Of a DNA stretch of 64,000 nucleotides, positions 61,825 through 63,200 are shown piece by piece; position 1 is the stretch's first letter, and each line of letters begins with the position of its first letter. The position numbers were made by a program, and so were the translations under genes. The stretch covers positions 868,001 to 932,000 of the forward strand of contig NZ_CP010835.1 of the NCBI RefSeq assembly GCF_001577775.1, in the 5' to 3' direction. This DNA is from Pyrococcus kukulkanii. GTDB lineage: Archaea; Methanobacteriota_B; Thermococci; Thermococcales; Thermococcaceae. The notes beneath the pieces were generated by a model. That model did no database searches. It had not been told where the DNA came from and saw nothing but the letters and a program-made list of their open reading frames with translations.

Positions 61825-62391
61825 TCAGGCCGAAACTATGCGGATTAGGCGGATTATGTCCTTGACCTCAAGGATGCCATGAACGCGGTTCTCGTCATCC
61901 ACGACAGGGAGGTGGTGCTTTCCAGTTTCGAGCATTATTTGTATCGCCCGCCCGAGGTTCTCATCGACGTGAATCGTTATGGGCCTGCGAATCATTATGT
62001 CCTTTACACGGGAGGCACGGTCTATAGAATACTTCTTGAGGAGGCCTACACCTACTATGGAGTACTTCCTCGGAGGCTCAAAGAAGCGGAGGAGATCCTT
62101 CATCGTGATGAAGCCAAGGAGATGACCCTTCTCATCCACGACCACCGCTGAACTCTCTTCGCCGCGGAGGCTCTGGACAAGTAGCGATATTGGATCTTCA
62201 GGCTGAAGGGTTAAGAACTCCCTATCCATGACGAGCTTCACAGGAACCTTGGAGATGTAGCGGATGTTATAGCTTAGTTCCTCCTTTCTCTTGAGCTGGA
62301 GCATCCTGCGTTTATTGCGAATTATTTTGAGTTTCTTCGCCTTCAAGTTCTTGGAGCCTTCCTTGGGGTTTAATGTGTCCATTTTCTTCAC
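61825..62391 (-). CDS. CBS-pair domain protein
   Basis: A 188-residue cytosolic protein. A basic N-terminal tail (about 45 residues, rich in Lys/Arg) precedes two CBS motifs: VKLVMDREFLTLQPEDPIS with GFITMKDLLRF, and VKDIMIRRPITIHVDENLG with HGILEVKDIIR. CBS pairs bind adenine nucleotides and gate transporters. Its place at the head of the antiporter cluster suggests it regulates those antiporters. Start is GTG 62391 or ATG 62382 after GTGAAG. Confidence 0.85.
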   Translation of the reverse strand: MKKMDTLNPKEGSKNLKAKKLKIIRNKRRMLQLKRKEELSYNIRYISKVPVKLVMDREFLTLQPEDPISLLVQSLRGEESSAVVVDEKGHLLGFITMKDLLRFFEPPRKYSIVGVGLLKKYSIDRASRVKDIMIRRPITIHVDENLGRAIQIMLETGKHHLPVVDDENRVHGILEVKDIIRLIRIVSA

Positions 62392-62640
62392 TAGTAGACA
62401 CTAATGTGCTAAAGCGTTTAAAGATTTTGGAACTCATGTTAAGGAATAAATGTCAAAATTTAAGTTTATATGCAAAATAAATTGACAAATATTAGCTAAA
62501 GCTTTTTGAATGGGTTTCATTTTTCTGAGGGTTTCTTGGGGATGTAGTAATTAAGGCTGTTCTTTCAGTGGTTTCTTTTGTTGTGTTTGTGTATTTTTGT
62601 TACTGTAAGGTTTTTTAAGTTCTGGGTGTGTGTTTTATTG

Positions 62641-62793
62641 GGGTCGTTTCCGTTCGGCCCGGAGGTTGATGACCTCCCGTCTGAGGTGACCGGTGATCCC
62701 GATGTGGACGGGAGTGCGAAACCAACCGCACCAGTTGCACTACAACCAGTAGCGGAAACGGTTCAACTTTACCCTCATCAACTAGCAGGCTAA
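62641..62793 (+). mobile_element. Folded relic resembling the tnpB 3' end/omega-RNA of an IS200/IS605 element
   Basis: A GC-rich island between AT-rich stretches. It can fold into a multibranch structure: closing stem CGTTTCCG (62645-62652) with CGGAAACG (62753-62760), hairpin GGAGGT/ACCTCC (62661-62677), stem CCCGTC/GACGGG (62676-62681 with 62707-62712, sharing two bases with the former), GTGCG/CGCAC (62714-62731) and GTTG/CAAC (62734-62746). One frame reads EVDDLPSEVTGDPDVDGSAK, which I recall at the C-terminus of thermococcal TnpB. There is no tnpA/tnpB nearby. This may be an orphan guide-scaffold RNA. Confidence 0.5.
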
Positions 62794-63200
62794 TCTCTTT
62801 GCCTTATTCCCTCATTATTTTCGGTTGGGCTTATAAACCCACTCTTTCTAATTCAAACTTCAGATGGAACATGGCTGATTGAAATTCTCCTCGTTGCCTC
62901 GGAGAATCCTCCATCTGTCTGTAATTCTTACACATAGCTTTAATTGGCTCATCTATTGTTTTCGCTCTAAAGATCCTCATTCTTCATTGCATCGACATCA
63001 TACGGAAAACAAGCCAAGTCCAAAAATAAGAGGTTCAGAAAAGGAGACAAGATATTAAAAAATAAAAACTTTTTAATCTATGTTCACTTGCGACTAAATA
63101 TTCACATCTGGGCTCTTATTTGTGTCTTAGCGAATGTTATGTAGTCTATATAGTCTCGGTAGATTTTTGAGGAGTTTCGCCTAGAGAAAAGGCGATAGCG
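62794..63200. other. Non-coding region before the XPD helicase
   Basis: About 400 AT-rich bases without a credible gene. It holds a nested inverted repeat: CAGATGGA (62861-62868) pairs with TCCATCTG (62910-62917), and inside it ATTCTCC (62884-62890) pairs with GGAGAAT (62901-62907). A TATA-like TTATAA at 62831-62836 could serve either strand. The helicase ribosome site AAGGCGAT is at its right end. Confidence 0.4.

Follow-up and report, generated by a model that had tools for sequence, protein, structure and literature searches.

Stand-alone omegaRNAs and PATEs of the IS200/IS605 family consist of a guide RNA, or of element ends, without a nuclease gene, and belong to Y1-transposase elements. 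The IS607 family and TnpB guide RNAs are also already known, and IS607 elements insert at a GG target without duplicating it (PMC6188088). Two non-coding RNAs of P. abyssi, sRkB and sRkC, were detected by Northern blotting as processed transcripts, with 5′ ends mapped 24 nt after BRE/TATA boxes, and were found to bind L7Ae through K-turns; sRkB extends into the start of PAB0571 (excerpts of PMC3124441). The same excerpts describe six similar loci in P. abyssi, one of which corresponds to the 3′ end of the OrfB gene PAB1452, and report expression for only two of the six, namely those with BRE/TATA boxes.

The window analyzed here is a stretch of 64,000 nt from Pyrococcus kukulkanii, and the segment under study (62641–62793) is intergenic and non-coding. 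It lies between a divergent CBS-domain gene on the minus strand (61825–62391) and a helicase-like gene that runs from 63201 onward on the plus strand, both named from their translations. The G+C content reaches 0.57–0.63 around 62630–62750, compared with 0.2–0.4 in the surroundings, as expected from the GC-rich island in AT-rich non-coding DNA described in the original prediction. That prediction also took the segment for an isolated orphan; instead, it belongs to a family of short mobile copies that have both element ends, and it represents, with very little doubt, a non-autonomous IS607 element with a TnpB guide-RNA scaffold (Table 1). The edges had to be redrawn as well, since the true repeat and its scaffold both end at 62761, and the rest of the segment (62762–62793) is flanking DNA that holds the would-be guide and the nucleotides beyond it. 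The region 62775–62825 gave matches of 22–33 nt (88–95%) to single places in the P. kukulkanii genome, G004 and G073, perhaps by chance.

Table 1. Features of the IS607-type element, in window coordinates
Feature	Position	Strand	Evidence or remark
Whole non-autonomous IS607-type element	62555–62761	+	207 bp, GG to GG, no ORF; edges in the window GG^CTGTTC and GGAAAC^GG; block common to other copies, empty sites at other copies
Left-junction AGG (GG crossover core 62555–62556 plus invariant A); candidate TAM	62554–62556	+	Left flanks of copies
Left end (LE) remnant, T/G-rich	62557–62638	+	First ~45 bp match LE of the own-genome tnpB element (62553–62597 against L055)
Compact omegaRNA (guide-RNA) scaffold	62639–62761	+	62639–62704 matches tnpB 3′ end
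H1	62641–62646 with 62655–62660, loop UUUCCGUU	+	GGGUCG/CGGCCC, GGGCUG/CAGCCC, GGGGUG/CACCCC, GGGCCC/GGGCCU across relatives
H2	62664–62667 with 62720–62723	+	GGUU/AACC, GGCU/AGCC, GGCC/GGCC
Predicted kink-turn	GAUGA 62668–62672 opposite GA 62718–62719	+	Kept bases; K-turns demonstrated experimentally in sRkB/sRkC (excerpts of PMC3124441)
H3	62674–62681 with 62707–62714	+	5 of 8 pairs with both-side changes
H4	62688–62691 with 62695–62698	+	4 of 4 pairs with both-side changes; one mismatch in the window copy
H5	Base 62726–62729/62752–62755; compact top 62730–62737/62743–62750	+	Two mismatches in the window copy
Predicted pseudoknot	Loop CCGUU 62650–62654 with terminal AACGG 62757–62761	+	Complementary in most copies
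Right GG core; right end is CGG, not AGG, beside the guide	62760–62761	+	Copy alignment, flanks
Predicted guide (flanking DNA directly past the right end)	62762–62781	+	Placed by analogy with TnpB guides

Nine copies of the compact form are present in the P. kukulkanii genome (1,977,126 bp), together with a single copy of the long form and a single relative that bears a gene. A search of this genome with 62600–62860 recovered L002 and L003 at 98–99% identity, L004–L007 at 82–86%, and two deleted copies, all with an identical terminal base. Flank alignment placed the unit edges at (A)GG^CTGTTC and GGAAAC^GG, and the other copies, 119–210 bp in length, lie at unrelated sites. Empty sites were taken from other copies, because the intergenic DNA flanking the window copy does not align in relatives and yielded no orthologous empty site. 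For L005, CAGCTAAAGGATAGC stands against CAGCTAAAGGGATAGC in G010, and the site is also empty in G005; for L003, GTGAGGTGATAA stands against GTGGGGTGATGG in G010; the empty site of L021 reads AGTAGG in G004. The intergenic DNA at the sites of L006 and L007 was too diverged in relatives for a verdict. Insertion occurs cleanly at GG, without target duplication, and GG is present at both ends, which is the pattern of a non-autonomous IS607 element. Among 18 distinct left flanks, the A and each of the two G residues of the junction are found in 17 (P ~2 × 10⁻⁸ for at least 17 of 18 A at p = 0.3), and at the right end the GG is always preceded by C (CGG).

Two of the copies, L002 (G000:C1 501039–501203, minus strand) and L004 (514500–514664, plus strand), are inverted relative to each other, and were compared with L020/L021 and with G004:C1 36.3–36.8 kb. 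In G009, G010, and G004, one copy's left flank adjoins the right flank of the other, and for this reason the ~13.5 kb between them was probably inverted in the P. kukulkanii genome by recombination between both copies.

The suggestion that a TnpB might be encoded elsewhere in the genome was borne out by a tnpB-only element of the same subfamily (L055/L098; G000:C1 ~1,285.2–1,286.7 kb). Its left end resembles 62553–62597, its tnpB 3′ end resembles 62639–62704, and its terminal GGAAACGG is identical to that of the window copy. The proposed tnpB 3′-end scaffold without tnpB at the locus was thereby recovered, as was the resemblance of one frame (G-FPF-P--D--P-E) to the C-terminal tail of thermococcal TnpB. 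The TnpB of L055/L098 (437 aa) scored 122.6 bits against NF040570 guided_TnpB, contains the RuvC D-E-D motifs (VDYN, LEAI, and DRDF), and aligns over the Zn-ribbon/RuvC to the solved TnpB 8bf8. A complete element of ~2.02 kb from another Pyrococcus (L095) has a left end like that of the solo unit, followed by a serine recombinase, tnpB, and a matching right end, so that both ends are held in common with an autonomous element. The recombinase was assigned to the NCBIfam IS607 transposase (205.7 bits against a cut-off of 110), and the TnpB to NF040570 guided_TnpB (114.4 bits against a cut-off of 100). A Y1 transposase (PF01797), the mark of IS200/IS605, had no match in the P. kukulkanii genome. 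The solo unit is consequently read as an IS607 derivative minus tnpA and tnpB, because its ends match those of L055/L098 and L095 and because the genome has no Y1 match. The IS200/IS605 origin assumed in the original prediction was rejected in favor of an IS607 type, with a serine transposase and a GG target. The other IS607 element of the P. kukulkanii genome (L096; G000:C1 551500–555500) is intact and encodes an intact TnpA, and its termini, GGCTGTT...AACGG, are similar to the solo ends. A short RNA just past its tnpB (920–1028 of L096, minus strand) weakly matched the covariance model of the scaffold (E 0.0005). In G008, a complete tnpA-tnpB copy is decaying (G008:C1 1042790–1043949; L167/L181), with frame breaks and an almost intact scaffold.

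The fold of the RNA is established by comparison of sequences only, and consists of five helices and a predicted pseudoknot. Twelve solo and four tnpB-linked relatives were compared (n = 16; 31 pairs in six helices). Overall, 95.1% of the cells were paired, and both-side changes were found in 52 cells and in 15 of the 31 pairs, which are the compensatory changes in relatives that had been called for. None of 500 shuffles matched the real alignment on any of five measures, and the signal collapsed when the partners were slid, a control that is somewhat flattering because the structure was named after inspection of the alignments, which were made by MAFFT and not structure-fitted. The compact copies alone were 93.3% paired, with both-side changes in 10 pairs. 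RNAalifold, applied to the solo copies alone, recovered H1, H2, H3, and H5 unprompted, and H4 is backed by the named-structure counts. Support for the stems comes from this comparison; the minimum free energy (MFE) of the window copy taken singly did not differ from chance (z −1.10), with 28 of 200 shuffles equally good. The conserved helices are mostly missing from the MFE fold of the window copy, in which only H1 (62641–62660) appears as such. A marginally better fold was obtained for the opposite strand (z −1.97), which homology does not support as an RNA.

The K-turn bases are kept in the compact copies (AUGA in 12 of 12, GA in 11 of 12), and the compact H5 replaces a long hairpin that, in tnpB elements, contains the stop codon. 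The bases of the predicted pseudoknot are nearly invariant and, for that reason, show no covariation. No family in Rfam 15 matched the scaffold at E values up to 1. It has attributes of an omegaRNA, namely a conserved secondary structure, homology to the tnpB 3′ end and right end, and a stop at the element boundary. A palindromic GATGACGACGCA-CTGCGTCGGAGGG is kept in long-form solo copies (L027, L033, and L037 of P. abyssi) as well as in tnpB 3′ regions (L055, L049, and L057); in tnpB it codes for part of the zinc ribbon, and it may form a further RNA hairpin.

A covariance model, to which the scaffold of the window copy scored 137.7 bits (E 5.6e-36), had matches in 42 of 94 Thermococcales genomes. 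Among the strong matches, the long form (~145–159 nt), in which H5 holds the tnpB end, is mostly linked to tnpB, and the compact form (≤127 nt) is linked to tnpB in none. A tree built from 52 sequences set the 25 compact copies apart with a support of 1.0 (0.966 without the H5 columns), although the shortness of the sequences leaves both its topology and the count of independent events uncertain. The compact clade spans Pyrococcus and one other genus of the Thermococcaceae (G022, G039, G030, and G033). Within the compact-only H5, pair 95/113 occurs as A-U, U-A, or G-C, and pair 99/109 as G-C, G-U, or A-U; these changes took place once tnpB was gone, and they speak for an RNA that has stayed in use. 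Such a gene-less, structure-conserved compact lineage looks new beside the known IS607 elements and TnpB guide RNAs. Pattern scans of the collection gave matches in three contigs of one Guaymas MAG only, and matched no viral contig. Nine weak matches of ~99 nt on G014:C1 (e.g., L173; E 1e-5 to 3e-3) possibly represent another protein-less guide-RNA family in a second genus.

The scaffold matches at 810096–810254 and 1612988–1613146 of G004 lie inside the published sRkB and sRkC loci (809887–810256 and 1612986–1613347; excerpts of PMC3124441), and the identification of G004 as P. abyssi rests on this coincidence of coordinates. The present search of G004 likewise gave six loci, one of them at a tnpB 3′ end, and the 3′ ends of sRkB and sRkC given in the excerpts fall 2–11 nt past the right end. 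In the literature searched, which covered few subscription papers, sRkB was found in one paper only, whose excerpts link such RNAs to OrfB 3′ ends. The window copy may be transcribed; counted against its use are a promoter that looks weak by eye in compact copies and the expression of only two of the six P. abyssi loci. A sigma-70-type promoter scan, a type not applicable to archaea, gave nothing.

Beyond the established copy family, its ends, the insertion at GG, the tie to the tnpB/tnpA element, and the conservation at the RNA level, it is fairly probable that the unit is a MITE-like internal-deletion derivative of the IS607 family, which kept LE, RE, and the guide-RNA scaffold, lost tnpA and tnpB, and borrows TnpB in trans. 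A domesticated RNA and a relic had been the two options offered originally; a mobile non-autonomous element with its guide RNA retained has better support than either. In the proposed mechanism, the element would be moved by an IS607 serine transposase acting in trans, and its transcript would be bound by a TnpB that likewise acts in trans. With the ~20 nt that follow the right end as its guide, TnpB would cut the AGG-flanked empty site on a sister copy, and recombination would then copy the element back. The site of the element itself would be spared, since CGG and not AGG precedes the guide: if AGG is the TAM, the empty site would be cut and the occupied one would not. The 5′-AGGAG of bacterial IS607 TnpBs (excerpts of PMC11061315) suggests, by analogy, that AGG may act as the TAM, and the constant AGG at the left junctions is consistent with TAM-adjacent guided cutting; the invariant A could instead reflect a preference of the transposase. 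TnpB may bind, and cut with, the RNA of the window copy. In favor of the mechanism are the cognate TnpB of the P. kukulkanii genome with its D-E-D residues, the intact IS607 TnpA, the selection at the RNA level, and a guide (62762–62781) with no second match in that genome when up to three mismatches were allowed. Counted against it are the spread of a scaffold-deleted variant and G010, in which the cognate TnpB is absent despite 13 scaffold loci, because the TnpBs of that genome are only 27–34% identical to it. Taken by itself, the trans-guide mechanism is about equally likely to be right or wrong.

The deleted variant bears on the possibility of a plain IS607 MITE, in which the transposase needs the ends only and the RNA scaffold is an unused passenger. 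Scaffolds are broken in L008, L009, L032, L034, L036, and L038, and L032, L034, and L038 (G009 and G010) have an identical internal deletion of part of H2–H3 at three separate sites; mobility therefore has no need of an intact RNA. IS607 transposition also requires tnpA only (PMC6188088). However, the solo clade has accumulated compensatory changes, both in the compact-only H5 and in H2/H3/H4, with several parsimony steps per pair, and a serine recombinase that acts on dsDNA should not require an RNA-like multibranch fold, so that a plain MITE is unlikely. It is far less likely that the scaffold is a domesticated RNA that controls adjacent genes, either by itself or together with TnpB or L7Ae. 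Such a role would fit the kept K-turn bases of the compact copies, the K-turn-mediated L7Ae binding of sRkB and sRkC, and the reach of sRkB to the PAB0571 start (excerpts of PMC3124441), but the copies are mobile and located at unrelated sites, the guide lacks a second target in the P. kukulkanii genome, and the catalytic residues of TnpB are kept, unlike in the dead repressor type. A decaying fragment of a single tnpB gene at the window site, to which the tnpB-like frame pointed, has a negligible probability and was refuted by the copy family, with 98–99% identical copies elsewhere that have both ends, and by the empty sites, according to which it is the short form that inserted.

The preferred reading, a mobile IS607 derivative that keeps its guide RNA and borrows TnpB, ties the long-known hyperthermophile RNAs sRkB and sRkC to TnpB guide RNA and IS607. 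A broader version, which falls somewhat short of an even chance, is a long-lived, RNA-only transposon lineage with its own selected scaffold, which would have spread through Pyrococcus and Thermococcus by borrowing transposase and TnpB in trans, the guide of each copy defending its site. The natural uncoupling of guide RNA from nuclease gene makes TnpB help for non-encoding elements testable, and the compact scaffold (~123 nt versus ~159 nt) would be a guide RNA, already shortened in nature, for a heat-stable TnpB.

Like the stand-alone omegaRNAs and PATEs, the window element lacks a nuclease gene; it differs from them in family, being of IS607 and not of the Y1-dependent IS200/IS605 type. It has the GG crossover of the IS607 family (serine TnpA plus TnpB), the lack of target duplication, and ends as in L095, whereas autonomous members carry tnpA and tnpB and the window element carries neither. 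With the guide RNAs of IS607 TnpBs (reRNA, RAGATH-18 group; excerpts of PMC11061315), the scaffold has in common its origin on the 3′ side of tnpB, pseudoknots and a guide past the 3′ end, both of them predicted for the window copy, and a TAM that would begin with AGG. Those RNAs are bacterial with a 5′-AGGAG TAM, and protein-less copies are not mentioned in the excerpts; the window scaffold is archaeal, has no Rfam match and, unlike them, overlaps the tnpB coding end. The closest relatives, sRkB and sRkC, are described in the excerpts of PMC3124441 as P. abyssi-specific and transposase-related, with no guide-RNA or IS607-MITE reading in those excerpts. Their loci are homologous to the window copy, and have the long-form scaffold, in which H5 is a long hairpin, together with a BRE/TATA box, whereas the window copy is of the compact form.
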